A DNA stretch of 64,000 bases from an uncultured Saprospiraceae bacterium (GTDB taxonomy: Bacteria > Bacteroidota > Bacteroidia > Chitinophagales > Saprospiraceae), in the NCBI GenBank assembly GCA_937981555.1, contig CALJOK010000020.1:1-64000 (forward strand), read 5' to 3'. The notes beneath the pieces are model-generated. The model had not been told where the DNA came from. It was given only the letters and a program-made list of their open reading frames with translations, and searched no databases. This document shows, in pieces, positions 7,001 to 57,970 of the stretch (position 1 is the first letter of the stretch; each line of letters starts with the position of its first letter). The position numbers and the translations under genes are program-made.

Positions 7001-10000
7001 TTAATGTTGCATTTTCGCAGACTTGAGGTGTTCCATCATCACATAGCAAATAAGCTATTTCTACTTCCCCAACAAAATCAGTTGTAGGTGTAAATGAATA
7101 ACTTCCATCAGGATTAATAGTCAAATCACCTGCATCTACAATAGGGTTTCCATTCGTATCTATTCCAGGAATAGTTGTCAGATTACCATTGGTAACGTAA
7201 TTACCAAAGTCACTTGGATTGTCAAATCCTGAGAAAGTTAAATTATCACCTTGTGGATCCAAATCATTTGTCAATACATTTCCATTAACGGAAACATTTG
7301 CCAATGTAGAATTATCGTCATCGACAGGTAATGTTGTATTTGTAATTTGGTCAATTATTATTCTATAATCTTCGACTTCACCATTCGTTGCTTCACCTGA
7401 ATAGGCAAATTGAGGGAAAGCAGGCCTTTCTTCAAATATTCTAAAACGAGCATAAAGTGTATTTCCCGCAGTTAAATCAGTTCCAGAAGGAATGTCAAAA
7501 GCAAGTGCAATATGAGTTCCATTAAGCATCAATGAATCAAGAATCATTTCACCTACATCACTAAAATCACCATCTTCATTAAAATCAATCCAAGCTACTA
7601 AATATCCATTTGGATTGGTTCCGTCTATAGTCAAATCAATATTTCCACCATTATTTCCTATTGTCCAAGCGGCGGTATTATTAAAAATAATTCCATCTTC
7701 ATCATTTGTTCCATTAGCATTATCTCCAGAAGCTGTTAAACTTCGAGTAGGAGAGGTTTCTGCGTCTACAAATGAACCTAGGAAAAGATTTGTAGATGTT
7801 TCCAAAATATGGTAAGCTCCTACAGGGCCATCAGTCAATGCCGTAGGATATGGCCCAGGCAAATCACCAAAGTCAATATCAATATTTATTTGAAAAGCAA
7901 AATCTAATGCATTAATATCAGCACCACTCACAGTAACGGTTTGGTAAAAACTAGTACCAGTATTAGTAACGGAGCTTGCTGGTGTATCTGCAGCATCAGT
8001 TGTTGGTGCAGTCAAATCTAATGGAGTACTAGTAGTTCCTACAACAACATTATAAGTATCATCTGGTAATCCTGAAAAAGAGTAATTACCATTAACATCT
8101 ACTGTCGTTGATCCCATGAAAGTACCTTCGTCGTTGTATAAGTAAACAGTAGTGCCATCTAACATTGATTCACCGCCTGTACTACAAACTCCATCGTCAC
8201 TTCCATCATCCAAACAAATTGTTCCACTTATGGTATTAGAGCCAGATAATTCTACTGCGAAGTCTAAATCCGAATCACATCCCGCAACGTCATTACACCA
8301 TGAATTAGCCCCATCAGTTACACTTCCGCTACTTATTGTAAATGAAGTTGTGGAATCATCTCCTCCATCAGCATCATATCCTGCGGTGTACCCAGCAGCA
8401 ACGGTTGTCATATCTAATTCCAGAGAATAGGCACCATCTGAAAGATTAGCATAAGACCAGAATCCATCAGAATCAGTTGTTACAGTATCTGGGATACCTA
8501 TACCATTTCCTAAATCTACTCCAGCAGGAGGAGTAATTATTACATCAACAAATGACATTATTGGTTCTCCTGAGTCATATATGCCATCTCCATTTACATC
8601 AAACCAAACTTGATCTCCAATTACCGAGGATGGTTCATATCCAAAATCAATCCCTGTCATTTGACTTCCGAAATTAACAGAAATACTATCTGCCATATTA
8701 TCACATGCATCATATCCAAAAGCAACTAAATCAGGGTCACTACAAGCTAATCCATCTGAATTAGGATCTGCACTTGGACTCACACCACTTGGAAGAGTAG
8801 AGGCATCAACTACCACATTATATTCTCCTGGATCTAACCCATTGAATAGATATGCTCCATCGCTATCTGTAACTTCTGTAGCAATTGCTGTCGTCGCATT
8901 ACAAGTTGGAGTACTAGTATCACATAAGTATACAGTTACACCTGAGATTCCTTCTTCACTTAGATCTTGTGTACCATTTGCATTATTATCATAAAAAATA
9001 GTATTCCCTATTGCTGCTGGATAAGCATATCCAAAATCAACATTTAAATTACAAGAAGAACATGCAGTTCCATTAATTGCTGAAATACTTCCTCCTGATA
9101 TTACTACATCTGCGGTAGAAGGTGTTGTTGTTATTGCATCATTTCCATAAGCATCTTGAGGAACATTTGTTTCAGCTGGATCAATTAATACCTGATAATC
9201 TCCATCAGGCAAATTATCAAATAAATAATTTCCATTCGTATCAGTAATTACAGTATCGATTGGTGTATAATTTCCATCACCATCTAAGTCTGCATAAAGG
9301 ATAACATCAATATTAGCTATTCCTGATTCTGTATTATCATGAATGCCATCTCCATTACTATCCGTATAAACAATATCTCCAATACTACCTGTTCCAAATG
9401 GAGCATAACCAAAATCTTCATCATTGTAAGATGTAGTCCCATCTACTCCTGCTACACTTGATATAGCATCACAAGTGGTACAAATACCAGTTTCGTCAGG
9501 GTCAGATGTTTGGTTAGCAACGCCTTCAGGTAATGTACTTTCATCCACATCAACGATATAATCTCCTGCGGGCAATGAACCAAAACTGTAACTTCCGTTT
9601 GTTCCGGTAGTTGTACTTGCTATTAATGCATCTGTACTAGCGTCAATAATTCCATCTCCATTTGAATCTTCATATAAATTAATAGTAACCCCTGAAATGC
9701 CTTCATCTACTCCAGCATCTTGAGTACCATCTCCATCCCAATCTACGAATAAGACATCCCCAATAGTAGAACTTCCTGTTTCGTTATATCCAAAATCATT
9801 TCCACTATAAATATTACCACCACTTACTGCAATTGGATCGGATGAGTTATTAGGAGAAATAGTCCCTTCAGGATCTAAAGTATTTGTATAGCCTGTTCCT
9901 GGAGAATTAACATTGTCAACCACTACAGAATAAGTACCATCTGCTAAATCTCCAAAAGTATAATTCCCATTCAAATCTGTTGTTGTCGTTGGACAATCAA

Positions 10001-13000
10001 CACCTATTGTACAAGCTCCATTACTCAAATAAACTGTTACTCCTCCCATTCCATTTTCTCCAACTTCTTGAGTTCCTTCTCCACTATTGTCATTCCATAT
10101 ATTTCCAGAAATAGCATTAGGAACAGCATAAGCAAAATCCGCAGTTAAATGATCATTTGAACTTGAAACTGCTACAATAGTTGAATTATCGCAAGTTGAG
10201 CAGGTTCCACCTTCGTCTGGGTCTCCTGTTTGGACAACAGTCCCAGGAATAGAATTTGGATCAACTGTTACCGTATAGTTTCCATCTAATAAACCATCAA
10301 ATAGATAATTTCCAGAAGCATCAGTTGTCGTAGTAATAGTTGCTCCTGATAGATAAGTAACTCCATCGAGTATTAAATCTACATCTGCAACTAGGTTGAC
10401 GGTTACACCTGGAATTCCTAATCCAGAATTAGAGTTGGTGATTAAATCTCCTATCGAACCAGTATTTTCTAAGGTAGTACTAGCTATGGAAGAATCATCA
10501 TTTGCAGCAATTCCATTGACAAATGTTGCTCCTGTTACAGATGCAGTATTATTTAGGGCTTCTCCGCCAGCTGTTGGTTCTTTTGCCTCAAAAGTTACGT
10601 TTATGGTTTTTGTTTCTTTTCCATTTATAATTCCAATATCATCCCAAAATAATTCTCCTGTTGTATTATTTACACTATCAGGTGTTATGCTTGCTTCAAC
10701 AAAACACATTTGAGCTGCATTCCAGGTATCCTTCAAAGGAACTGGTGATAATGAAGTGGTGGAGTTAAATGTTCCACTAGTTGAACTTGAAAAAGAAAGA
10801 CACTCATTGGTAGCAGTCCAAGTTGTATAATTTCGGCCTGTGGCAGAATAGACACTTAAAACATCATCTTGAAGCCCCATTAAATGAGAAGCAACCCCAT
10901 CAGGTTGACTAGTAGTAATTATTTTTACTTCATTAGTTCCTTCATGTAATTGCAATTGTGTGGTAATAGGATTTCCTCCACCAAAATGTTGAATATTGGT
11001 GAAATTGACTAAAAATACCGATCCATCAGCATCATAGCCATATTCAATTGTCCCTCCAAGAGAAGGATCTAAATCTGTAAAACAAAAAGCAATAGTCTTT
11101 TCAAAATTAGCATCTGGGAATGTTGTCAAAGCAGGAGTCGTTACTCCATCTGTGCCAGGGGATGTAAAACTTAAAAATCCATTGGAAGAAATATATGCCT
11201 GCGTCACAGCAGTTCCAAAATAATCAAAATTAAAGCCAGCTAAAGATATAGCATTACTGACTTCATCATCTAACATTGTTAAACTAGTAGGTGAACTTAT
11301 AGCCATGGGTGAATCACCACAGGTAGATTGAGAATATCCTCCATCTCCTGGTGTTCCAGGAATGGTATGGGTAACTCTATAACTAACTGCGTCAAGGTGT
11401 AAAGTAACCCCGTCATTTGAACCAACTCTATCATAATTTATTCTTAACCCCCTATCTGCTGCTGTTAATAATGCCCAATCTACTAAACCTGTACTATTTG
11501 CAGTAATATCTACATATATAGTATGAGTGTTTCCATCATCATATGAGGCTAATGAAATAGAGCTAGTACTTCCTACACTTCCTCCTTTAATAGGTGCAAT
11601 CAAAAGTAAATCTTCATTACTGCCAGGTACAGTTCCTGTCATATAAAATGTTAAGCCAGCCTCCACTTTTGTAATTGTAGAGCTAGGATTAGGAATTCCT
11701 GTTAAGTTTGAAAAAGTAGAGAAATCAAGAGTAGTATTTGATCCTCCACTAGCATAAGTACCATTTGCACCTGTACCATCATCATAAGCATTTCCAGGAT
11801 TTGTAAAACCTGAATTTGTTCCTGCTGTTGCCCAAGCGGTAATAACCTCAGTAGTAGGTGGAGTTCCAGTTGACGCTGGTGGACCAATCAAATTCTCTAT
11901 TTCCAAATCATAATTAACATATTGATTTTCATATGCTGGAGCTGGAGAAGTTAATGTTTTTGTTACTTCTATAGCAGGTGAAAATCCAAAATCTACATCT
12001 AGATTATTACCACCTGATAAGTTGACTGCAATTATTGATGTTCCTGAACTGATACCCCAACCTGTATTTAAATCAGGATCTTGATTATCTACTACAACTA
12101 AAAAATCCCCATCAGGCAAATCCGTAAAAGTGTAATTTCCACTTGCATCAGTATTAGAAGTGCTTAGTAGAATATCATTAGCATCAAGTGAACCATCACC
12201 ATTGGAGTCAAGATATAAGGTCAACCCTATATCTGGAATTCCAGCCTCATCTCCATCTTGAACTCCATTTCCAGTTGTTCCAGTAGTTCCTCCATCATCA
12301 GCAAAAACAATATCACCAATAGAATTAACACCTAAAACAATTGTAGATACAATATCTGTTAACAATGGCGTGTCACCTCCAAATCCTACTCCACCTTCAT
12401 TTTCAATAACAGGGATTGTATAACTAGGAATCGATACATTAAAGTTAGCAGTCACAGTAGCTCCTGCTCCTAACACATCATCTAACCACCATTGAATATT
12501 AGTTACACTACTTGCGGGCACAGGTTCTGTGGTGACCCAAGTAACTCCATTGTCGGTAGAATAATTTATTGTTGCAGTTGGAGTGCCTGTCAAGGCTGCT
12601 GTTCCTGATATATATTCTGTCCCTGTAGGAATGGCATCAGATATTACAAGTGGTTTATAAAACTGAGGTAAACCAACTGGTTCAGCCTCATTATTGGTTA
12701 CACTTAGAGTATATGTTAAGTTAGTTGGTGGCGCAGTTGAAGAAGTTACAGGGCCACTTTTATCAAAAGTTAAATCAGGAGCTGTTGCTCCCGGTACCCC
12801 TGAGCCTGCTCCATAATCACCATTATATTTTTCATTGTCTTTTCCAGAAGCAACACATTGATAAGGAGTAAGTGCAGCAGCACAAGGTGCACTTACTGGT
12901 AAAAATTCATAGAATACTAATCCAACTGCACCATTGTTATTGTCAGGAATATTGGAAAAATATAATTGATCTTCAAATGGGATTAAATGCTCTGTTCCAT

Positions 13001-13850
13001 CAGTCAATTTTACAATTATTAATCCATATGCTTTTGTTAATTTATAACAACAAGCATCAAATTGGGAAGGGTTTCCTACTGGTTGCATAAACACATTATA
13101 ATCAGGAATAAAATCTCTATCGTTATCATACCCCTTATTAATACGTCCCAAGTCATACCAAATACCCTCTAGCACAAATTCTGATCCTGCTGAAGCATTT
13201 TCAGTATCTGGTCTCCAACCAAGTTCTTGTTCAAATGCATTTAGGTATTCAGCAGGCACTTTATTGGTTCCGTTGGGTTGAGATTTATTAGCCATTGCTG
13301 AAATCATAGATCGCAATGTTACCGTCCAAGAGTCATCAGCTGCCAATACTCCATCCACAGGATCGGTTGCAGTAGCCCAAAAATCAAAATCTAATGTCAA
13401 ATCATCATCAGTTGAATTTCCTCCAATGGTAGGATCGCCAGAACCATCAACCACAGGATATTCTAGTAACCAATATTGGGTTACACATTCTCCAGCTGGG
13501 ATTATTCCAATAGTTCGGGAAGCATCTGTTACATCGCATTCACCTGAATGTTCAAAAGAAAATGTGCCTGAATATCTCGAATAACTTACTGTATTTGTTG
13601 GATAAACTCCAGGAGTAGGTCCTGTGAAATCTCCAATATTAACAACAACATTCGAAAGATCATCTGCACCATCATTGCAAACCTCTACTCCTACATAAGC
13701 ACTCGTTGGGCCACTCGTAGGATCATTTGAATCAACAACAAAGTTGTAGGCTGAAATTACTTCTAATCGCAAATCTCCTGTAGGATTGGCTGCTCCAAGA
13801 AAAGTAATGGATAGCATTGAAAGAATAAAAGAAAAGTAGAATTTAATCAT
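4092..13850 (-). CDS. Giant T9SS-secreted multidomain surface protein (SdrD_B, GEVED, VCBS-like repeats)
   Basis: About 3,252 residues. The frame stays open to 14003, but the Met at 13850 begins a proper signal peptide (MIKFYFSFILSMLSITFLGA), so that start is preferred. Order by approximate residue: a unique N-terminal region with a DUF11-like segment (20-503); one SdrD_B-like repeat (507-622); a mixed region with a lectin- or nidogen-like part (622-1127); seven more SdrD_B repeats (1128-1992) with Asp-rich D-x-N/D-x-DG calcium-type loops, each ending in a GNY-x-F-x-x-L-x-DG-x-Y core; GEVED domain 1 (1997-2167); six VCBS/cadherin-like repeats (2167-2897); GEVED domain 2 (2897-3070); and an Fn3-like module plus a T9SS type A sorting domain with FPNPV (3070-3252). 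It is probably a calcium-stabilised adhesin or surface stalk anchored after T9SS export. Its ligand is unknown. Confidence 0.9.
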   Translation of the reverse strand: MIKFYFSFILSMLSITFLGAANPTGDLRLEVISAYNFVVDSNDPTSGPTSAYVGVEVCNDGADDLSNVVVNIGDFTGPTPGVYPTNTVSYSRYSGTFSFEHSGECDVTDASRTIGIIPAGECVTQYWLLEYPVVDGSGDPTIGGNSTDDDLTLDFDFWATATDPVDGVLAADDSWTVTLRSMISAMANKSQPNGTNKVPAEYLNAFEQELGWRPDTENASAGSEFVLEGIWYDLGRINKGYDNDRDFIPDYNVFMQPVGNPSQFDACCYKLTKAYGLIIVKLTDGTEHLIPFEDQLYFSNIPDNNNGAVGLVFYEFLPVSAPCAAALTPYQCVASGKDNEKYNGDYGAGSGVPGATAPDLTFDKSGPVTSSTAPPTNLTYTLSVTNNEAEPVGLPQFYKPLVISDAIPTGTEYISGTAALTGTPTATINYSTDNGVTWVTTEPVPASSVTNIQWWLDDVLGAGATVTANFNVSIPSYTIPVIENEGGVGFGGDTPLLTDIVSTIVLGVNSIGDIVFADDGGTTGTTGNGVQDGDEAGIPDIGLTLYLDSNGDGSLDANDILLSTSNTDASGNYTFTDLPDGDFLVVVDNQDPDLNTGWGISSGTSIIAVNLSGGNNLDVDFGFSPAIEVTKTLTSPAPAYENQYVNYDLEIENLIGPPASTGTPPTTEVITAWATAGTNSGFTNPGNAYDDGTGANGTYASGGSNTTLDFSTFSNLTGIPNPSSTITKVEAGLTFYMTGTVPGSNEDLLLIAPIKGGSVGSTSSISLASYDDGNTHTIYVDITANSTGLVDWALLTAADRGLRINYDRVGSNDGVTLHLDAVSYRVTHTIPGTPGDGGYSQSTCGDSPMAISSPTSLTMLDDEVSNAISLAGFNFDYFGTAVTQAYISSNGFLSFTSPGTDGVTTPALTTFPDANFEKTIAFCFTDLDPSLGGTIEYGYDADGSVFLVNFTNIQHFGGGNPITTQLQLHEGTNEVKIITTSQPDGVASHLMGLQDDVLSVYSATGRNYTTWTATNECLSFSSSTSGTFNSTTSLSPVPLKDTWNAAQMCFVEASITPDSVNNTTGELFWDDIGIINGKETKTINVTFEAKEPTAGGEALNNTASVTGATFVNGIAANDDSSIASTTLENTGSIGDLITNSNSGLGIPGVTVNLVADVDLILDGVTYLSGATITTTTDASGNYLFDGLLDGNYTVTVDPNSIPGTVVQTGDPDEGGTCSTCDNSTIVAVSSSNDHLTADFAYAVPNAISGNIWNDNSGEGTQEVGENGMGGVTVYLSNGACTIGVDCPTTTTDLNGNYTFGDLADGTYSVVVDNVNSPGTGYTNTLDPEGTISPNNSSDPIAVSGGNIYSGNDFGYNETGSSTIGDVLFVDWDGDGTQDAGVDEGISGVTINLYEDSNGDGIIDASTDALIASTTTGTNGSYSFGSLPAGDYIVDVDESTLPEGVANQTSDPDETGICTTCDAISSVAGVDGTTSYNDEDFGYAPFGTGSIGDIVYTDSNGDGIHDNTESGIANIDVILYADLDGDGNYTPIDTVITDTNGNYLFDNLPDGDYQVLIDPAETNVPQDAYGNDAITTTPSTADVVISGGSISAINGTACSSCNLNVDFGYAYPAAIGNTIFYDNNANGTQDLSEEGISGVTVYLCDTSTPTCNATTAIATEVTDSDGAYLFNGLDPGEYNVVVDASTLPSGVSPSADPNSDGLACSDPDLVAFGYDACDNMADSISVNFGSQMTGIDFGYEPSSVIGDQVWFDVNGDGIYDSGEPIMSFVDVIITPPAGVDLGNGIGIPDTVTTDSDGFWSYANLSDGAYSLELDMTTVAAGYTAGYDADGGDDSTTSFTISSGSVTDGANSWCNDVAGCDSDLDFAVELSGSNTISGTICLDDGSDDGVCSTGGESMLDGTTVYLYNDEGTFMGSTTVDVNGNYSFSGLPDDTYNVVVGTTSTPLDLTAPTTDAADTPASSVTNTGTSFYQTVTVSGADINALDFAFQINIDIDFGDLPGPYPTALTDGPVGAYHILETSTNLFLGSFVDAETSPTRSLTASGDNANGTNDEDGIIFNNTAAWTIGNNGGNIDLTIDGTNPNGYLVAWIDFNEDGDFSDVGEMILDSLMLNGTHIALAFDIPSGTDLTAGNTLYARFRIFEERPAFPQFAYSGEATNGEVEDYRIIIDQITNTTLPVDDDNSTLANVSVNGNVLTNDLDPQGDNLTFSGFDNPSDFGNYVTNGNLTTIPGIDTNGNPIVDAGDLTINPDGSYSFTPTTDFVGEVEIAYLLCDDGTPQVCENATLTITVSPIPDPNDDTTNSLIANNDDNITYDNVNIDGDVLSNDRDPDGDNLAFSGFEDPNNSGTYDQISSTLADINGLDDNGLPVTNAGDLIIGADGTYTFDPEPGFTGTVDIDYQVCDDASPSNCTIATLSITVLGDANVTDNDPPFAGDDYSVTVQSTPVTGAWLSNDNDPNSDNITINGSASNVDPDSPGDGSVTLVTLSTDQGGTVQVYNDGTYLYTPPIGYSGPDEVSYEICDVTATAPQPLCDSATIHLLVTPINNTFAVDDENVTLQDVEVTGNVMTNDFDPESDDQTFSSFLDPSTGLPTTSSTDPITVSGEGTLTPDGNGGYTFDPDPSFTGVFSIEYEVCDDGIPQTCETATLEIEVAPTPDPTSTSSNDIIANNDDNVTYVNKTVSGGLLSNDSDPESDNITFVGFDDGGAPTNYINNGTLSSLPGTDADGNVVADAGDLNINADGTYTFVPAIDFVGKVQAQYQICDDSTPQACEIAVLTIKVLPDEDPTNNDPPFAGDDFLSTPIGTTATDNFINNDNDVNSNSISVGGTTIDPNDVTPSTIGTYTTDQGGSITMYSDGNYTYAPPASYSGPDSYAYEICDVTAIDPQPLCDSATINLLVVPLYRDFSDLDNTLYSPASHQSAPDGNSDNIPDGANAYWLGTIVDYESVDVSSGSATGDDNDAVDDEDGLIIPASLSAGTNAVFTVTVNSNTTGKTVHFGLWIDWNEDGTFDSLYVDSGITSSPTNVNVTIPVPVTYSGGTVNIRLRAFDTAPTSADSSGDFKNGEVEDYQRSFALPVELIDFKAQADKCDINLNWVSASEDNFSHYEVERSKDGYSFNTINTVEAKGGSSSLSSYQFTDYTAFLEGYYRLKMVDLDGTFEYSQILVVNTDCDDRSNISVFPNPVLTQQGILNVRFFSNQRNTSLKLVDMLGKTVKILSLSVETDVINTLQLDISDIPGGSYSLKIGNEDSILLVIID
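5160..7350 (-). repeat. Six VCBS/cadherin-like repeats arranged as two triplets
   Basis: Six units of about 365 bases each begin with an Asp-rich opener and an N-D-x-D-P-x-x-D-N core. Their openers alternate as class A (VDDDN or VDDEN), class B (ANNDDN) and class C (NDPPFAGDD), then A, B, C again. Equal classes are about 1.09 kb apart, so the array looks like one three-unit block copied once within the giant gene. Confidence 0.8.
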
Positions 13851-13934
13851 TTTTGTTTTAATTGTGTTTATGAAGGATAAAAATAACGAGGAGTTATATT
13901 TCTGTACAAGAAATAAAACCAACCATATCAACTT

Positions 13935-13970
13935 GAGAAAGAGAGAAAGAGAGAAAGAGAGGTGTGTGTG
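13935..13970. repeat. Tandem octamer (GAGAAAGA) x3.4 followed by a GT run
   Basis: Three perfect copies of GAGAAAGA (13935-13958), a partial fourth, then alternating GT to 13970. It lies 85-120 bases before the preferred start of the giant surface-protein gene, in its probable leader or promoter. Such simple repeats can change copy number by slippage. Confidence 0.85.
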
Positions 13971-14110
13971 ACAGAGTATATTAATTACAAAATTTCCTCC
14001 CAAAAGTGTTCCAGAAGAAGTAAATAATATTATTTAATAGTCAATATCTGTGACTAGGAAAAAATGGTGGCAGATTCTTTTTTTTGATTCAAACATCTGA
14101 TATTTAATTG

Positions 14111-49477: not shown

Positions 49478-52042
49478 ATGAATTTATACATTACTGACTT
49501 TAAAGAACAATTTTCTAGTAAAAAAGAAGATCTTAAAAATGCGAAGTATATCACATTGACGGATTCTGAGATGACCCCGGATCAGTATGATATGGTTTTT
49601 AAGGAAGCAACTCAGGTTGCTAGATTACAAATTACTAATCATAAAATTAAGTCACTTCCAAATCTAAAGCATTTAAATCAACTTCATCATTTTGATTTAT
49701 CTTGCCCAAATATAGAGTCTCTTCCTGAGCAAAATTTTCCTTCTACTATTTGGCAATTTAATTACAACGCTGGGAAATTACATCAACTGCCTGATTATAT
49801 TTGGAAATTAGAAAACTTAACCCAGATATGGATTAAGAATGAGGAGATCGTAGAAATGAAGATACCTAGCGGTTCTCTGATAAGGTCAGTTTACATCATC
49901 ACGCCAAAATTAGGAATATTAGAAATTGGGAAAACACAAACAAAGCTTGGACAATTAGAAATATCTTCCCGGTCATTAAAAAAAATAGATAACAGTTTTT
50001 CAAATTTAACCGAACTCTATACCCTCAAGGTAAAAGCACCAATAGAAGAAGTGGATTGTGATTTTTCGCAAGTAACAGGCCTTAGTGAAGTGAGACTAGA
50101 TGGTTGGAATTTAGAGGACTATGGTTTTATGAATACCATTCAAAAAATGTATTTTTTAGAAATCTCCAGATCAAAAAAGAAATGGAAAAACTTACCTGAT
50201 ATTAAACAATGGAAAAATATAAATCGACTTTGGATTTCAGATTGTTTAGATACCACACTCACCGATTCGGAAATTGAAGGTCAGTCTTTAATCCAATTAT
50301 ACATTCGAAATTCCAACATTAATTTCGAACCAAAGTTTTTTAAAAATTGTCAAAGATTATCGGATGTTCAGTTGGAAAATATTCCACCTGTTAATTTTGC
50401 AGAGTGCATTCGTTATTTACAAAGTTCAACGGGACATATATTTTTAGGTGAAATAGAGTTAAAAGATATTGATAATATTCCAGAAGGGATAGAAGCAGAT
50501 TGGTCTTACTTAACTTTATCAAAAAATAATATCGAGCATAATGATTTAAACTTCTTAGATCATTTACCCAAATTAAAATCATTTAGAACTTGGAATAATC
50601 CAATTTATTCTACTCATGTATTTTTGAAAAATAGAACAGTACCTATTGAAAAAATGCCTGAAACCCTTGAAGGTTTTAAATATAAAAATGTAAAGCAATT
50701 TTGTAGCCTTTGCTCTTCGATTGAAAAGTCAGGTTTGCCTCAAGAGGACAAAGAGTTTTTTGTCAATTATTTGATGGGACGAACTAAGTTGGACGTGAAC
50801 AAAACTTGGAATTGGGAGACGATATTAAAAGCGACCAATATTACCTTGTTGGCCTTTAGGAAAAAACTGATGGCATTAATTGATGAAAAAGTAGAAGCCG
50901 TAAAATTAGAAAATCCTTTGAGCGAAAACTCAGTTCTGTATATTTCAGGTAAGCCCAATATGAAAATTACCGAACTCAAAAAACAAGTCAAAGAATTAGG
51001 ACTTCAATTAGAAACTAAATATTCTGATCAAGTGACTCATGTAATCATTGGAACGAAATCTCCAGATTACCATTTTTTTGCTGACAAAAAATTCACTCCA
51101 ATTACTGATGTTGATTTGCAAAAACAGTTTGCAGATTCTCAACCACAATTTTTAAAAGAGACTTTAGAAAAGCAAGAAGGTGCTGCACCCGAAATGTTGG
51201 AAAATTTAGAACGCTTGTTGCAAAGCAGCGATATCATCAATGTAAAGGTAGGATTGGAAATGATAAAAAATGGAGGAATGCCTCCACAGATTTTTGATAG
51301 TTTACTTCTTGTACAGAAAACTACGTCAGATCCAAAAATAAGAAAGGCTGCTAAAGATATGTTAGAAATACATGCTGATGCAGAATGGAAACCTTTAGTT
51401 CGAGATCGACTCTCTTTTAAAATGGTTAATGATCCTAATAAATCTGAAATTGATATTCGGCGACAATTTAAAGCGATCGCTAAAAAATTGACACCGACTT
51501 TGGCAGGTAAATTTTCTATGCTCATGTTTCAAAAAATAGGGAAGGGGCTTCGCTATTCACTTACCGCGGGCTTGAAAAAAGAGATTAAAATGGAAGCTTA
51601 TCAATTGCTTCTGACCGATCACCATTTTGATTTTTCCAAAGGATTAGGATTTAGTGAACGGCCAAAAGATCCAAATAGTTATGATGAATATAATTTGCCC
51701 GAGATGAGTGTGGCGTTGCCAGTTTTAGTATTAGAGTTGGGTGAAATTCATTCGTTGGATTTAACCAATTGTCGATATAATAACTTGAGTCAAAAGATTA
51801 CCAAATTTAAAGATCTTAAACATTTAAATTTGTCGATCAATGAAATGTCAAGTTTGCCTGATCACCTTGGTACTTTGCAGGATCTTGTAACAATAGATTT
51901 ACGGGAGAATAAATTTAGGTTTTTTCCAGAAGTTTTAGGTAAATTTCCAAAATTGAAAAAAATAGATTTTAGAGGAAATAAAGATATAGTTGTTCCTGAT
52001 TGGTTTTTAAAAACAAATCATGATTGTGAAGTTTTAATATAA
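49478..52042 (+). CDS. LRR-BRCT-helical-LRR protein, paralog 1
   Basis: An 854-residue, probably cytoplasmic protein (no signal or membrane helix). An N-terminal leucine-rich repeat array (about residues 40-385), with irregular units such as LPNLKHLNQLHHFDLS, is followed by a helical linker and a BRCT-like domain (about 483-560; VLYISGKPNMKITELKKQ, then YSDQVTHVIIG). A helical, HEAT-like part (about 570-745; INVKVGLEMIKNGGMPPQIF) and a second, regular LRR block (about 755-840; LKHLNLSINEMSSLP) complete it. The same order is found in the protein encoded at 53180-55501. BRCT domains in bacteria are mostly in DNA ligase LigA; this mix is unusual. The VWA/MoxR pair next door suggests a shared machine. 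Confidence 0.82.
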   Translation: MNLYITDFKEQFSSKKEDLKNAKYITLTDSEMTPDQYDMVFKEATQVARLQITNHKIKSLPNLKHLNQLHHFDLSCPNIESLPEQNFPSTIWQFNYNAGKLHQLPDYIWKLENLTQIWIKNEEIVEMKIPSGSLIRSVYIITPKLGILEIGKTQTKLGQLEISSRSLKKIDNSFSNLTELYTLKVKAPIEEVDCDFSQVTGLSEVRLDGWNLEDYGFMNTIQKMYFLEISRSKKKWKNLPDIKQWKNINRLWISDCLDTTLTDSEIEGQSLIQLYIRNSNINFEPKFFKNCQRLSDVQLENIPPVNFAECIRYLQSSTGHIFLGEIELKDIDNIPEGIEADWSYLTLSKNNIEHNDLNFLDHLPKLKSFRTWNNPIYSTHVFLKNRTVPIEKMPETLEGFKYKNVKQFCSLCSSIEKSGLPQEDKEFFVNYLMGRTKLDVNKTWNWETILKATNITLLAFRKKLMALIDEKVEAVKLENPLSENSVLYISGKPNMKITELKKQVKELGLQLETKYSDQVTHVIIGTKSPDYHFFADKKFTPITDVDLQKQFADSQPQFLKETLEKQEGAAPEMLENLERLLQSSDIINVKVGLEMIKNGGMPPQIFDSLLLVQKTTSDPKIRKAAKDMLEIHADAEWKPLVRDRLSFKMVNDPNKSEIDIRRQFKAIAKKLTPTLAGKFSMLMFQKIGKGLRYSLTAGLKKEIKMEAYQLLLTDHHFDFSKGLGFSERPKDPNSYDEYNLPEMSVALPVLVLELGEIHSLDLTNCRYNNLSQKITKFKDLKHLNLSINEMSSLPDHLGTLQDLVTIDLRENKFRFFPEVLGKFPKLKKIDFRGNKDIVVPDWFLKTNHDCEVLI

Positions 52043-52088
52043 GATAAGAAAACGACTTTAATTGAAAAATAAATAACAATATAATTAC

Positions 52089-53102
52089 ATGGAGAAAAGT
52101 AACAGAGGAGTAAGATATTCTATTTTAGATTTAGCGCTAATTTCACAGGGAAATACGACAGCTGAAACCCTACAAAAAAGCCTTGCTTTGGCTCAGCAGG
52201 CGGAAGAATTTGGATATCATAGATATTGGTTGGCGGAGCATCATAATTCTATTAGCATCGCCAGTTCTGCCACTTCAGTTTTGATTGGATATATTGCAGG
52301 TGGAACAAAAAAAATTAGAGTTGGTTCTGGTGGAATTATGTTGCCAAATCATTCCCCACTCATCGTGGCAGAACAATTTGGTACGTTAGGTTCGTTGTAT
52401 CCTAATCGGATTGATTTGGGATTAGGAAGAGCTCCAGGGACAGACCAAGAAACTGCTTTTGCCATTCGTTCGGACAGGATGAATTCGGTGTATAAATTTC
52501 CGGAAGAGATTCAGAAAATCCAACAGTATTTTTCCAATAACAATAGCGATGCAAAAGTTCGCGCTAATGTTGCTGAAGGAGTAGATGTTCCAATTTACAT
52601 TTTAGGTTCGAGTACAGATAGTGCTCATTTGGCTGCCAAGAAAGGATTGCCTTATGCTTTTGCGAGTCACTTCGCAACTACTCAATTAATTGAAGCGCTT
52701 AATATTTATCATAATGAATTCCAACCGTCTGAATTTTTGCAAGAACCATATGCGATGGCTGGAGCTAATGTGATTGTGGCTGATACTGACGAAGAGGCGG
52801 AAAGGTATTTCACTTCTCTAATTCGAGGTATCATCGGAATCCTAACTGGTAAAAGAAATTTTTTACAAGCACCTACCGAGATGACTCCCGATTTAGTTGA
52901 AGTAAGAAAGCATCCTGCTGTGGAGCAAATGTTGAAGTATTCTTTTGTAGGAAGTAAAGATACCGTAAAGAAGAAAACAGAGGAATTTTTAGCTCAAACT
53001 AAAATCAATGAATTGATCGCAGTTACTAATATTTATGATGCAGATAATCGAGTGAATTCGTATCAGATGTTTTCTGAAATTATGAAGGAAATTAATAATT
53101 GA
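52089..53102 (+). CDS. Luciferase-like monooxygenase (LLM class flavin oxidoreductase)
   Basis: A 337-residue TIM-barrel oxidoreductase of the bacterial luciferase-like group, subgroup MsnO8/YhbW. Marks are YSILDLALISQG near the start, EEFGYHRYWLAEHHN (about residues 42-56), GGIMLPNHSPLIVAEQF, RIDLGLGRAPGTD and FVGSKDTVKKKTEEFL near the end. Such enzymes use reduced flavin and oxygen, but the substrate is rarely known. It starts 46 bases after the LRR-BRCT gene on the same strand and ends 77 bases before the convergent paralog, so it is physically inside the LRR/BRCT/MoxR/VWA cluster. This may be a chance neighbour. Confidence 0.9.
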   Translation: MEKSNRGVRYSILDLALISQGNTTAETLQKSLALAQQAEEFGYHRYWLAEHHNSISIASSATSVLIGYIAGGTKKIRVGSGGIMLPNHSPLIVAEQFGTLGSLYPNRIDLGLGRAPGTDQETAFAIRSDRMNSVYKFPEEIQKIQQYFSNNNSDAKVRANVAEGVDVPIYILGSSTDSAHLAAKKGLPYAFASHFATTQLIEALNIYHNEFQPSEFLQEPYAMAGANVIVADTDEEAERYFTSLIRGIIGILTGKRNFLQAPTEMTPDLVEVRKHPAVEQMLKYSFVGSKDTVKKKTEEFLAQTKINELIAVTNIYDADNRVNSYQMFSEIMKEINN

Positions 53103-53110
53103 GGTGATAT

Positions 53111-53146
53111 GGAGATAAATTTTTCAAAGAAATTTTATCTTTATTT
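53111..53146 (+). terminator. Imperfect hairpin terminator between convergent genes
   Basis: AGATAAATTTTTC and GAAATTTTATCT pair with one bulge, followed by TTATTTTTAC. It lies just after the luciferase-like gene. Confidence 0.5.
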
Positions 53147-53179
53147 TTACAGAATTGTAAGATCAATCACTTTTAAATA

Positions 53180-55501
53180 TTAGACTAATATCTCACAATC
53201 CTTCATCGCATTTCGAATTTCAGCATCAATTATTATTGGATGAATTGTTCCGTTAATTTGATTTTTTCTAAAATCGACCAACTTAAGATTGGGGAAATTA
53301 AACAACTCTTTGGGGAATTCTTCGAAGTTATTCATTTGTAAATCTAGGTGTTCCAATTGAGTAAGTTTTATAAATGATTTTGGAAATTTTTTAATAAAAT
53401 TAAAAGACAAATCTAATCGCTTTAAATCTTTCATCTCACCTATTTTTGCAGGTAGTGAATTGAATTTACAATTATGAAAATTGGCAGATTCAATTAACGG
53501 GACATGATCCACAATATCTATTGGGAATTTTGCAATAGCTTTTATTGACCAAAGTTGAATGGCCTCTTGACCTCTCTCTTTCCAGTTGGTAAAACCTAAA
53601 CCTGGAGCAAAGTTAAAATGTGTTCCTTCCATCATCGCAAGTAATGCATCTGTTCTTTCTTGACAAGGTTTATGGAAATGATAAAGAATGTAACGCAATC
53701 CTTTCTTATATCTTTTATGAAACAATAATGACATTTTAGCGGCAAGATTCCTTGAGCTGTTTTTTGCGATTTTCTCCAATTTTTTATTGATGTCTTGAGC
53801 TTTTGAATTAGCATTGATTCCTGTAAATCTTTGAGTGTCATTAATCAAAGGCAACAACTCGGCAGGAGCATGTTGAAGCAATATTTTTTTTGCCAAACCT
53901 CTAGCTTTACTATCAGGGCAAGTTTTGAAAACAACCAAAAGTGGTTCAATCAAGTCTTTTGGGACTCCACCATTTTTAAGCATTTCTAAACCAACTAAAA
54001 CATTTGGAATGTCATCACTATTGATGAATTGCAAAATATTATTACTGATAGAATCATCTCCTTTTGAAACTGCTGCTTCGATAAAACCTGGTGCATCCGC
54101 TTTAAATATTTGATAAAGTGCTTGCTCGGAAACTAGCTGTAAATTTCTGTTAACCAGTTTCTTATAAAGTTTTGGATTTTTACATATGATTAGATGAGTG
54201 ATGTCGTCATCTGGCTTGTCGGTGAATGGAATATTTAATTCTTTGAGTTTTTTCTTGATTTCAGTTTTACTTCGGCTAGGATTTCCTGCGATATGTAACA
54301 ATGACTTTACATTTAAAGTAGAGATGCCATTTTCTTTTTCACAATGGTCATCTAATTGAGTTTGAATAGCATTTCTTAACGCAGCAAAATTGACATTCAT
54401 CAAGGTAATTAATTCATGGAAAGGTAGTTCTTCCAGTTTCTTAAATTGCCTAACACCAGTAAGTTTTTTAAAATAATATTCTTGTTCCTCGATAGAAAGA
54501 ATAGATTTACCTAGGGCGCCTGCAAGTCCTAAGGCTTTATTCTGATCTAACAAAAATGCTTTTTGATAACCTGTTCCTTCTGTATATCCTTCCCTTGAAA
54601 TAAATTGGATCGTACCTGATATAGGAACAGTTTTTTTTCTTAGGAATATTTTAGGATTAGATAAATAGTGAGACCCTAAGGAAATATTTTTAAGTTTAGG
54701 GAGAGTGTCAATAAAATTAAAATCCTTAAAAATATAATCGTGTCCTCTAAAATTAATTTCTACTAATTCTGAGAGGGAGCTCCAATCTTCAGGGAATTCC
54801 ATCTCTTTTGAAAGTTTGAAATTTAGATTTTTTAGAATAGATAATTTAAAAATATAGCTAGGGAAGATTGTTGGATTATAGTTTCCGTCTATCAGTACTT
54901 CCTTATATTTTTTTGTAAAAATAATAGTTGGAAGTTTATCTGATTTTAAATATTCTAAATGCAAAGATTGGTATATCGGACTATTGTTTTTAGTAAAGAA
55001 ATGTTGAACATAAATTTCTATTTCATGTGGAAGTAATCCTGGGATTCTTATTCTACTAGAGTTGAACTTCGATTCCTCCAAAAATAATTTAAACATATTC
55101 CTTCGTTCAGAATGCGAACCATCATCTGCACATAAAAAATCACGTAAAGCTTTTCCTGTTCTTTTAAAATAAGTATAAAGAATATTAGCACAAAATTGAT
55201 GAGGGAAATTATTTTTCAATGAATAGAAATATAGGTTGTCATAATTTGTATAACCATTAATGTTTCTAAGAATAAGAGCCTTTTGATCTAAAGATAATTT
55301 TGACTCAATGAATAAAAGTATATCGTTAGCGAAGAATTTGTCATCACTTGTCAGAGCAATTGCAACTAAGGAAGGAAAAAACACGTCATCAGAATCCAAA
55401 TTTTTAATGATCTCAAAAGCTATTTTATCATTGGGCAATGAGTTAGAATAGATAAGATTAAATATCTTTTCTTGATTTGAATTTGAAACAAATGAGTCCA
55501 T
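53180..55501 (-). CDS. LRR-BRCT-helical-LRR protein, paralog 2
   Basis: A 773-residue protein with no signal or membrane helix. The N-terminal 380 residues are helical at first (about 1-170) and then LRR-like near 225-290 (LKNLNFKLSKEMEFP and LPKLKNISLGSHYLS). A BRCT-like domain follows (about 393-465; SLLHIAGNPSRSKTEIKK, then DDDITHLIICKNP). A helical part with IPNVLVGLEMLKNGGVPKDL closely matches the same place in the 49478 protein, and a regular C-terminal LRR block (about 667-760; LKRLDLSFNFIKKFP) ends the protein. It is the last gene of an apparent operon with the VWA and MoxR genes, 42 bases after MoxR. This points to the LRR/BRCT protein as adaptor or substrate of that pair. Confidence 0.82.
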   Translation of the reverse strand: MDSFVSNSNQEKIFNLIYSNSLPNDKIAFEIIKNLDSDDVFFPSLVAIALTSDDKFFANDILLFIESKLSLDQKALILRNINGYTNYDNLYFYSLKNNFPHQFCANILYTYFKRTGKALRDFLCADDGSHSERRNMFKLFLEESKFNSSRIRIPGLLPHEIEIYVQHFFTKNNSPIYQSLHLEYLKSDKLPTIIFTKKYKEVLIDGNYNPTIFPSYIFKLSILKNLNFKLSKEMEFPEDWSSLSELVEINFRGHDYIFKDFNFIDTLPKLKNISLGSHYLSNPKIFLRKKTVPISGTIQFISREGYTEGTGYQKAFLLDQNKALGLAGALGKSILSIEEQEYYFKKLTGVRQFKKLEELPFHELITLMNVNFAALRNAIQTQLDDHCEKENGISTLNVKSLLHIAGNPSRSKTEIKKKLKELNIPFTDKPDDDITHLIICKNPKLYKKLVNRNLQLVSEQALYQIFKADAPGFIEAAVSKGDDSISNNILQFINSDDIPNVLVGLEMLKNGGVPKDLIEPLLVVFKTCPDSKARGLAKKILLQHAPAELLPLINDTQRFTGINANSKAQDINKKLEKIAKNSSRNLAAKMSLLFHKRYKKGLRYILYHFHKPCQERTDALLAMMEGTHFNFAPGLGFTNWKERGQEAIQLWSIKAIAKFPIDIVDHVPLIESANFHNCKFNSLPAKIGEMKDLKRLDLSFNFIKKFPKSFIKLTQLEHLDLQMNNFEEFPKELFNFPNLKLVDFRKNQINGTIHPIIIDAEIRNAMKDCEILV

Positions 55502-55543
55502 GTAAATGTATTGTTATTTTTTTAAAGAATTTCTATTTTGATT

Positions 55544-56656
55544 TTACATCTTCTGCAACAGCATCATCGCCACTTCAGGATCTTGCATCACCGCTTTTAA
55601 TGCAGCATTAGTAGAACTCACCAAATCTTGCAACATGGACAATCTTAAATCATTTGGAATAATATCCATTTTGATAAATGATTGCACATTTTTTATTTCA
55701 TCTTTATTGGGTTTTATTTCATTTAAAGTGAGATAATTGACTAGACGTGTACACATTGTTGCAATAATATCTACTCTTAAAACTTCCTTCTGCACGATTC
55801 CTTTTAGATGTTTGTACACGTCATTTTCAAAGTTTTTGGTTTTTAAAATTTGCTCAGGTTTAACTAACTCTGAAAGATTTTGTTGGACAAAAGAAATAAA
55901 CGAAACGATAGTCGCTTCATCCAAACAAGACGAACCTAGCATTTGAATCAATGGAAGTTCTTCAGAGAAATTTTTAATACTTTCTATACTTTGAAAAAAT
56001 TGAACGAGCGAACGAGGAGTTGTTTGTTGGCCATGTGCAATTTCTGGATAAGTTAAAACAAAGTTGATGCACCTCGAATCTACTCCAGATTTTTCTGCCC
56101 ACACCGCCCAAGCTTTTGGATCAAAGTTCATGGTGATATGCATCATCCGAGTGAGCATAGCATTGTCCATCGGAGTGACAGAATAATCTCCACCATCAGG
56201 ATTTGCAGTCAAAACGATTTGCCAAAACTTAGGTAATTTCCAACTTACTAATTCATAGTTTTGTAGGAGTTGCATGATGCCTCGAAGGATTCGATCATCT
56301 GCTCGGTTGACATCATCAATCAATAAAATCCCTGGACCTTCCTCTGTCGGAACCCAATCAGGACTACTGAATATTGTTCGTCCATTTTCGACAGAAGGCA
56401 TTCCAACCAAGTCGCCCATTTCTTCAAATTGAGCAGGAGCGATGTATGCCCATTGGTAGCCAAGCGTATTGGCAATCTGATTTACCATTTCCGTTTTCCC
56501 AATTCCATGTGTTCCCCAAATGCAGATGGGAGATTTTTTATTTCCTGATTCTTCAGCCGCAATATTGGTTTTGATAATATGTTCTACGAAACCTCTTACT
56601 TCATTAGCGTTGGATTCCATTCCGTAAAAAACATAATTGTGTTTTTGATCACTCAT
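55544..56656 (-). CDS. MoxR-family AAA+ ATPase
   Basis: A 370-residue AAA+ protein. Walker A is GTHGIGKT (residues 48-55), Walker B LLIDDVNRAD (111-120), sensor 1 TANP (Asn152) and the arginine-finger region MLTRMM (Arg170). The WVPTEEGPG and DLVGMP segments match the MoxR-type pore and binding loops. The C-terminal 150 residues form the helical lid and an extra helical domain. MoxR proteins work with VWA partners as chaperones that remodel or activate target proteins. It lies 48 bases after the VWA gene and 42 before the LRR-BRCT gene, all on the minus strand. Confidence 0.92.
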   Translation of the reverse strand: MSDQKHNYVFYGMESNANEVRGFVEHIIKTNIAAEESGNKKSPICIWGTHGIGKTEMVNQIANTLGYQWAYIAPAQFEEMGDLVGMPSVENGRTIFSSPDWVPTEEGPGILLIDDVNRADDRILRGIMQLLQNYELVSWKLPKFWQIVLTANPDGGDYSVTPMDNAMLTRMMHITMNFDPKAWAVWAEKSGVDSRCINFVLTYPEIAHGQQTTPRSLVQFFQSIESIKNFSEELPLIQMLGSSCLDEATIVSFISFVQQNLSELVKPEQILKTKNFENDVYKHLKGIVQKEVLRVDIIATMCTRLVNYLTLNEIKPNKDEIKNVQSFIKMDIIPNDLRLSMLQDLVSSTNAALKAVMQDPEVAMMLLQKM

Positions 56657-56704
56657 TTATTTTTATTTTTTTAACTGTTTTGCCTTGTATTTCAAAGCCA
56701 TTTT

Positions 56705-57970
56705 TTAGTTAGTCATTTTTAATTTTTTGCCTGGTAATTTATTCCAGATATCGTCATTTTCTTCAATTCCATTCGAAGTGACAATCCACAAAACAGGGTA
56801 GCGAGTAGGCATACTCGGTGGCGCAGCATAACCATCTGTAAAATAAATTAACGCATCGGGATGAAATTTTTCATTACCATATTTGATGGGCGCATCGAAA
56901 GAAGTTCCACCTCTGCCATGTACTTTTACAGGGGTGATTCCTTTGTAATTATAAGTATGATGAATATGGGTATCACATTCTACGATTTGAATTTCTGCTC
57001 CTTGTTTCCAGATGAAATATATTTCCGCAAAAAATTCTACCAAGTCATTATTCGGAACACTTCCTGAGGTATCAATGGCGAGTAACAATCTATTTCGTCT
57101 TTTTACTTTTACGCCAGGCACCGTTCCATATCGCTTGGAGGGACGACGAATCGTATTTTTTATAAAAGTACTATTGCTCGAAGTGGCGAACAATCGGAGA
57201 AGTCTACGCCAATTAAATTTCGGTTTCATCTCCGCCAAAATTTGTTCTAATTGCTCAGCAAGACTTCCAGGGAGGTTGCCGTAATTTTTATATTTATGTT
57301 TGACTCGGTCTGCCGTTTGTTTAATCATTCGGTTGGCTTGGTACTCTGCAATTTTGCGTTCACCTTCCGACATTTTTTCAATTTCTGACCAAAATTTATG
57401 TCTCTCTAATTCGATATTTCCGCCAGACATCAAACCTGAAATATCTACTTGAGACTCTCCTTTACTTTTATCAGCGCTTGTGTTATTGACTGCCTGTCCA
57501 AAACTCATCAAAGACGGTGTCTTAAATATTTTACCCAAATGATGATAATAATATCCAACATCTTTGTCTTTTTCCAAATCAATATTATACATCGGTAAGA
57601 GGTAGGCAAAATTTTCTAACAATATTCCTCCGTCTGGCAATTGCTTACTTTCGATATATTGATTAACGACAATGTCAGCAGCAATGTTAAATAATTTTTT
57701 ATTGGGAAAACCTTTCATCAAAAACAAATGCTTCAAAACAATATGTAACATTTCATGCTTGATGAGACCATACCTATGTTGATCATTTAGCGAATCCCAA
57801 AAATTTTCATTGACTATTAATTTGATGCTTTGTCGATTCATTAATGCAACTGCTGCTGTATCTGTCTGTTCTGAAATTTCTTTAGGTAAGCCCATCATGA
57901 AATGACCATAGAATGGTTCGGTGAGAAGAAGTTTGACGCTGGTCTTGCTGATGGAATCTATAGATTTCAA
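56705..57970 (-). CDS. VWA-like protein with putative HExxH metallopeptidase domain (DUF2201-type)
   Basis: A 421-residue protein that fuses two domains. Residues about 8-260 resemble the DUF2201 N-terminal metallopeptidase-like part, with HEMLH at 72-76 and, 20 residues on, an NIAADIVVNQYIE helix holding possible third-ligand residues. Residues 290-421 are a VWA domain with an intact metal-ion-dependent adhesion site: DTSGS (300-304), GGTSF (Thr356) and FTDGY (Asp379). It is the first gene of the apparent VWA-MoxR-LRR/BRCT operon. In this class the VWA part is thought to bind the MoxR ATPase; whether the peptidase part is active is unknown. Confidence 0.88.
   Translation of the reverse strand: MKSIDSISKTSVKLLLTEPFYGHFMMGLPKEISEQTDTAAVALMNRQSIKLIVNENFWDSLNDQHRYGLIKHEMLHIVLKHLFLMKGFPNKKLFNIAADIVVNQYIESKQLPDGGILLENFAYLLPMYNIDLEKDKDVGYYYHHLGKIFKTPSLMSFGQAVNNTSADKSKGESQVDISGLMSGGNIELERHKFWSEIEKMSEGERKIAEYQANRMIKQTADRVKHKYKNYGNLPGSLAEQLEQILAEMKPKFNWRRLLRLFATSSNSTFIKNTIRRPSKRYGTVPGVKVKRRNRLLLAIDTSGSVPNNDLVEFFAEIYFIWKQGAEIQIVECDTHIHHTYNYKGITPVKVHGRGGTSFDAPIKYGNEKFHPDALIYFTDGYAAPPSMPTRYPVLWIVTSNGIEENDDIWNKLPGKKLKMTN

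Follow-up and report, generated by a model that had tools for sequence, protein, structure and literature searches.

Several machines have been described in which a MoxR-type AAA+ ATPase works with a protein carrying a von Willebrand factor A (VWA) domain. In NorQ-NorD a finger of the VWA protein is reported to occupy the pore of the MoxR ring, and a metal ion-dependent adhesion site (MIDAS) to bind acidic residues of the target; CbbQ-CbbO and RavA-ViaA are named alongside it (PMC9976466). Four classes of MoxR-vWA ternary system have been proposed, i.e. VMAP, iSTAND, FtsH and beta-propeller (PMC7159879), and a variant linked to diversity-generating retroelements (DGR) has been described (PMC10907252). 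Pairs of MoxR and metallopeptidase-vWA proteins also occur in phages, in jumbo phage group 2.2 (PMC7824862). Here we analyse a stretch of 64,000 nucleotides, hereafter the window, from an uncultured Saprospiraceae bacterium (assembly GCA_937981555.1, contig CALJOK010000020.1, positions 1 to 64,000) that encodes a MoxR ATPase, a zinc-peptidase-like VWA protein and two paralogous proteins, A and B, with leucine-rich repeats (LRR) and a BRCT domain. To our knowledge MoxR-VWA machines are common and most are without a known client. The LRR-BRCT family is a candidate client pointed to by the genomes themselves, co-occurring with the motor even where the genes are unlinked. The locus is a real, recurring variant of the MoxR-VWA ternary machines with an LRR-BRCT part that is apparently undescribed; full-text searches of the literature, which covered few subscription papers, found no account of MoxR-VWA with LRR-BRCT, and an earlier note on this DNA, made from the sequence alone, likewise knew of no described system with these parts.

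The genes for the VWA protein (57970-56705, 421 aa, with a TTG start), the MoxR ATPase (56656-55544, 370 aa) and LRR-BRCT protein B (55501-53180, 773 aa) are consecutive on the minus strand, separated by 48 and 42 bases. The gene for the paralog A (49478-52042, 854 aa) lies convergently on the plus strand. The ends, strands, order, spacing and convergent paralog given in the earlier note are all borne out.

This arrangement recurs. A scan with twelve MoxR proteins gave 159 relatives, of which the best 80 were taken with up to 10 kb of flank on each side. The loci were scored using open frames called by script (the MoxR frame was missed in five) together with profiles for the VWA protein and for the BRCT and helical part of the LRR-BRCT proteins, which we term the core. 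A VWA gene is present in 43 of the 80 loci, a core gene in 35 and both in 30, so that the conserved neighbourhood that the earlier note offered as a check was found. A core without VWA was seen at five loci, some of them at contig ends. Where at least 4 kb was available on either side of MoxR (49 loci), VWA was present in 31 and core in 25, and all 25 core loci have VWA; exactly two core copies were found in 12 of the 49, three in one and four in another. The loci come from Bacteroidota (Saprospiraceae, Flammeovirga, Runella, Cellulophaga, Flavobacterium and Paraflavitalea) and from Gammaproteobacteria (Vibrio, Photobacterium, Ferrimonas and Microbulbifer). All nine gammaproteobacterial loci have the system in another gene order, with one to three core genes oriented away from VWA-MoxR. 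In Flavobacterium limi a pair of core genes, a gene of 317 aa, MoxR and VWA form a single run. The rows are not all independent, e.g. loci L165, L173 and L172 are the same as L087 in genome G079, L041 in G007 and L043 in G018 respectively. Among the 55 core-type proteins, those of L126, L134, L138 and L166 match in the helical part only, and those of L097 and L101 are cut or short.

No further family recurs at these loci, the other neighbour groups reaching no more than six loci each among the 25 largest groups listed and reflecting local synteny only. Ordinary neighbours of the VWA gene in related genomes were considered as partners and rejected; besides VWA and MoxR, none occurs in more than four of 16 loci.

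The association extends to genes that are not linked. Among 60 related genomes, 17 have the VWA protein, 14 have MoxR and 20 match the core profile; in 15 of these 20 the match extends past the BRCT domain. All 15 of these core genomes and all 14 MoxR genomes fall within the 17 that have VWA. Fisher's exact test for core and VWA gave 9e-12 with the window's own genome removed (table 14, 2, 0, 43), 4e-9 within the family (14, 1, 0, 21) and 2e-6 for family genomes of at least 4.4 Mb (13, 0, 0, 9). Genome size can be rejected as the source of the association from the last of these, 13 of 13 against none of nine with the window's own genome excluded. Core and VWA genes are on different contigs in all 14 core genomes other than the window's own. 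An earlier profile made from the two window proteins alone found eight genomes, all within the same 17. Among the 15 core genomes G019, G031 and G033 match chiefly in the helical part. MoxR and VWA genes are adjacent in seven of 14 genomes; in one more they share a contig at a distance of 16 kb, and in six they are on different contigs. This adjacency together with the co-occurrence suggests that the two proteins may form a physical complex. In a wider set of 395 genomes of the phylum a core extending past BRCT was found in three (G000, G079 and G335), MoxR at 1e-50 in three (G000, G032 and G079) and DUF2201_N in 10, eight of them above the cut-off.

A search of the 60 genomes with the whole of protein B at 1e-15 returned only its own genome, suggesting a private gene; this was rejected once the BRCT and helical core was used as the query. 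A single-protein pattern scan of genome contigs with B gave eight stretches and no relative. A scan of viral contigs with a two-row alignment gave 242 stretches and no relative, although with two patterns only this was a weak test. Plasmid searches gave four records for B, matching in LRR only, and one for the Vibrio MoxR.

The VWA protein matches DUF2201_N (65.7 bits) and DUF2201 (63.7 bits), both above the Pfam cut-offs, and so belongs with the DUF2201 metallopeptidase-VWA proteins. Its model has a mean predicted local distance difference test score (pLDDT) of 84.5, and a fold search placed VWA structures at the top, the best with E values of 0.002-0.01 and none at or below 0.001. Members of the family are about 380-500 aa long with the VWA domain last, and in the window the VWA domain ends the protein. 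The MIDAS motif DTSGS (residues 300-304; 57059..57073, minus strand), with T356 and with D379 of TDG, conforms to the DxSxS pattern that is intact in all 54 aligned rows. Towards the N-terminus, HEMLHIVLKH (residues 72-81; 57728..57757, minus strand) comprises an HExxH motif and an additional histidine. Histidines 72, 76 and 81 are invariant in the 54 rows, while the glutamate is retained in 47 and replaced by glutamine in seven. These seven rows come from loci L165, L174, L105, L110, L035 and L041/L173, with Flavobacterium limi and Paraflavitalea among the sources; a single gene stands behind both L041 and L173 and so enters the seven twice. Thus, while the window protein itself has HEMLH, an active zincin with its catalytic glutamate is not found across the family, proteolysis cannot be universal, and an obligatory proteolytic function was rejected. 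The possible proteolytic step of the earlier note is thereby weakened. The HQxxH proteins retain their histidine ligands and are natural variants that could be used as inactive controls.

The best-conserved window of 15 residues in the VWA protein is NTIRRPSKRYGTVPG (residues 272-286; 57113..57157, minus strand), a proposed MoxR-binding element. In the model residues 263-275 and 285-289 have pLDDT below 50, i.e. a disordered loop, and phage N4 gp25 has QRPNRRY aligned with it. By comparison with the finger reported to enter the MoxR pore in NorQD, we infer that loop 272-286 may do a similar job.

The MoxR protein matches AAA_5 (39.2 bits) and has both Walker A and Walker B motifs, the former being GTHGIGKT (residues 48-55; 56492..56515, minus strand) with positions invariant in the MoxR alignment. 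In the tree it sits among linked loci, in a clade of seven rows (support 100/97), and the gammaproteobacterial loci form one clade (support 100/100). Against solved sequences the MoxR profile gave midasin as the best match when the scores of several AAA modules were added together, although none of the individual stretches passed. The PADLOC models matched neither the LRR-BRCT proteins nor the VWA protein, and for MoxR the sole matches were weak ones to AAA models, at 0.003 or worse.

Pfam detects BRCT in both LRR-BRCT proteins, at 27.8 bits in A and 23.3 bits in B with a cut-off of 21.3, and C-terminal LRRs in both; N-terminal LRR-type stretches are found in A and none in B. Protein B, modelled at a mean pLDDT of 87.8, has a helical domain (residues ~1-145), an LRR-like arc (~146-310), helices, BRCT (~398-470; 54092..54310), helical repeats (~471-640; 53582..54091) and the C-terminal LRR (~660-773; 53183..53524), all on the minus strand. 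The BRCT of A covers residues 483-533 by the Pfam match (50924..51076, plus strand). A core profile of 32 rows matched a DNA-ligase BRCT (1l7b) among solved sequences at 7e-9. A Foldseek search with the model of B gave LRR proteins only, and no BRCT, among the best 50 matches listed, so the assignment of this segment as a probable BRCT domain rests on sequence, through Pfam and the family profile. The LRR-BRCT architecture read in the earlier note therefore stands as far as the domain matches go, and its BRCT fold is without a counterpart among those 50. Single proteins with tandem BRCT matches were seen in two genomes, at G005:C121:13886-14338 and G024:C253:5780-6274 (loci L231, L234, L230 and L233), the open frames being 321 and 315 aa long; both genomes have a VWA gene.

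Proteins A and B share 29% identity over the full length and 36% in the BRCT and helical core, and within their genome each is the other's sole relative that is not LRR-only. The core tree has two main Bacteroidota groups, often with one of each per locus, a separate duplication in gammaproteobacteria and, in L124, a tandem pair, so loci came to have two copies on more than one occasion. Protein A is placed weakly with the group of B. Identity to sister loci falls from 84-85% for MoxR and 71-72% for VWA to 43-45% for B (37.5% to L101). Within B it is 58-65% in the helical repeats, the slowest-changing part, 41-58% in the C-terminal LRR, 38-49% in BRCT and 25-37% over residues 1-395; the N-terminal helical and LRR-like half (residues 1-310; 54572..55501, minus strand) changes fastest, at 28-35%.

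Phosphate-binding BRCT domains have a pocket that follows an S/T-G rule. Serine precedes the invariant glycine in four of the 32 core rows and threonine in none; A has serine and B has alanine. A phosphopeptide-binding BRCT was therefore rejected, and the phosphoprotein recognition suggested in the earlier note is correspondingly less likely.

Our preferred reading, to which we would give an even chance, is that all four genes, the minus-strand trio and the convergent paralog, specify a single remodelling machine resembling NorQD and midasin, in which the LRR-BRCT proteins would be dedicated clients or adaptors. MoxR would assemble an AAA+ ring on which the VWA protein would dock through its basic, hyperconserved loop 272-286, leaving the MIDAS to grip a dedicated partner, the LRR-BRCT protein. 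Because the BRCT-helical-LRR part of that protein changes more slowly we take it to be the side that would meet the motor, while the faster-changing N-terminal half may read a ligand that varies from one species to another. ATP hydrolysis would then remodel or strip the LRR-BRCT protein or its cargo, much as NO reductase is acted on by NorQD, and ribosome assembly factors by midasin. The recurrent neighbourhood and the co-occurrence of unlinked genes support the place that the earlier note gave to the LRR-BRCT proteins as the sensing or target arm, here a dedicated partner, of an ATP-driven MoxR-VWA machine. What a MoxR-VWA motor pulls on would here become directly testable with three purified proteins.

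A number of observations weigh against this reading. VWA is present without core in G032 and G047, and without MoxR at 1e-8 in G047 and in G005 and G031, the last two having core as well. The clearest case against strict dependence is G335, with a core-type protein and neither MoxR (1e-8) nor DUF2201_N; its gene (L088:8831-11044) is flanked by AcrB-type and histidine-kinase genes. The core profile was built mostly from MoxR-linked proteins and could favour finding such proteins. The BRCT-only genomes G040, G041, G044, G050 and G058 were excluded as ligase-like by size and position; with these five of the 60-genome set went 56 of 59 in the phylum set, the matches ending by profile position 97. 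Most belong to open frames 665-850 aa long, presumed from their size to be DNA ligase. Nor was a conserved acidic ligand for the MIDAS identified on the LRR-BRCT side.

MoxR-vWA ternary systems of this kind have already been proposed in biological conflict (PMC7159879), and the locus could be an immunity system in which the LRR-BRCT protein senses an invader and MoxR and VWA release the zinc peptidase as effector. This is unlikely in our view, if worth keeping in mind. It would suit the fast-changing N-terminal half of B, a patchy spread (MoxR in three of 395 phylum genomes) and loci with two and up to four core copies, and proteins with a caspase domain stand beside two loci (L099:4950-6602 and L114:13969-15372), one with MORN and one with Sel1 repeats. 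Yet the neighbours give it little encouragement: after omission of eight near-copy loci of the 35, 121 of 146 neighbour proteins were scanned (those left out being mainly the longest and locus L164), and PADLOC gave no more than two matches per family among 25 of 82 families listed, with Dnd-like genes at one locus, while the Pfam families listed were mostly metabolic or regulatory. With no recurrent defence neighbours among the proteins scanned, the conflict role raised in the earlier note has lost ground. In addition the VWA end lacks a variable effector, the peptidase glutamate is glutamine in seven of the 54 rows, and synonymous sites are near saturation in comparisons with sister loci. 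The MoxR-VWA pair might instead be a chaperone in its own right, as in phages, with the LRR-BRCT genes merely travelling along. Phages do have the pair with no LRR-BRCT, with VWA matches in 91 phage records and MoxR in 153, the families PHROG 1297 and 1314 being matched; N4 gp24 matches the MoxR profile at 3.3e-13 and gp25 the VWA profile at 4.4e-24, and G032 has MoxR and VWA without core. We think this improbable, since travel alone does not explain the co-occurrence of core and VWA in 14 more related genomes, on different contigs in every one.

Two further readings involve DNA. SPRTN/Wss1 acts with p97 to remove proteins stuck on DNA, and WGR domains are known from PARPs. By analogy, BRCT (and WGR in one lineage) could direct a DNA-damage device to DNA ends, where peptidase and motor would clear DNA-stuck proteins. 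BRCT is present in both window paralogs with DNA-ligase BRCTs as the closest solved sequences, HExxH is retained in 47 of 54 VWA rows, and WGR occurs at 55.3 bits in one paralog of Flavobacterium limi, as well as in YehF, which neighbours the MoxR-VWA cluster of E. coli. The F. limi protein (L165:3531-7001), the longer of the pair there, combines WGR, TPR, LRR, BRCT and LRR in one chain. With this WGR domain in view, the recognition of DNA ends hinted at in the earlier note is a candidate function. WGR is found in only that one of seven core-type proteins scanned, however, and its relative in L174 lacks it; in the same seven BRCT is under the cut-off in L174, L114 and L081 and is not listed for L099. 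The phosphate signature residue is not conserved, HQxxH variants exist, and DNA-repair genes do not recur nearby among the 25 largest neighbour groups listed. We consider such a device improbable. Also rather improbable is a further, fifth class among the ternary MoxR-vWA systems, SPRTN/p97-like, in which exchangeable (WGR-)LRR-BRCT readers would find damaged or foreign DNA-protein complexes; a zinc-peptidase-VWA motor would then pull apart or cut DNA-bound protein. Were the link of BRCT and WGR to DNA true, it would constitute a new bacterial means of handling protein-DNA complexes.

Between the LRR-BRCT paralogs there is a gene for a luciferase-like monooxygenase of the MsnO8 family (52089-53102, plus strand; Pfam), 46 bases past the gene for A on the same strand and possibly co-transcribed with it. 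Elsewhere the window has an open frame of 3303 aa (4092-14003, minus strand). A promoter scan found 42 sites compared with 36.7 in shuffled sequence, i.e. no excess, and 10 terminator-like sites compared with 4.6; these were not used.

The yehF/yehI/yehL/yehM/yehP/yehQ cluster of E. coli is similar in that it groups a MoxR-type AAA_5 protein with a VWA protein, with large proteins and with a WGR protein. It differs in that YehP is a VWA_CoxE protein without HExxH, YehI is DUF4132 and YehM is DUF5682. The MoxR, VWA and core profiles gave no match below E 0.05 to any of the seven proteins YehF, I, K, L, M, P and Q, so membership was rejected; by these profiles the cluster is an analogue rather than a relative, which weakens the link with yehI/yehL/yehP made in the earlier note. 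Phage N4 gp24/gp25 is a homologous pair, gp25 having HELWH as well as QRPNRRY, with no LRR-BRCT partner in the annotated stretch around it; for the jumbo phage pair the proposed role is in virion assembly (PMC7824862). Midasin (Mdn1/Rea1) also pulls dedicated partners by its MIDAS, but is one giant polypeptide whose partners have ubiquitin-like (UBL) domains, not LRR-BRCT (PMC8837202). NorQ-NorD shares the MoxR ring, the VWA adaptor with MIDAS and the remodelling of a target by ATP hydrolysis (PMC9976466). The targets there are a metalloenzyme (NorQD) and rubisco (CbbQO) with no LRR-BRCT protein, and no zinc peptidase is reported there for the N-terminal part of NorD. Of the four ternary classes, membership of any was rejected on the absence of STAND, FtsH and propeller Pfam matches, VMAP-C being outside the models used. 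The main text of PMC7159879 contains neither BRCT nor leucine-rich, and LRR once, within a reference. In the window the third component is LRR-BRCT-helical, and the VWA domain lies C-terminal to a zinc-peptidase-like domain and ends the protein, so that the variable effector found C-terminal to VWA in VMAP and iSTAND systems is lacking. The likeness is nevertheless clear: those systems too encode a MoxR AAA+ protein and a vWA protein with a distinctive third protein, and their authors likewise propose that the third component is restructured by MoxR-vWA (PMC7159879).

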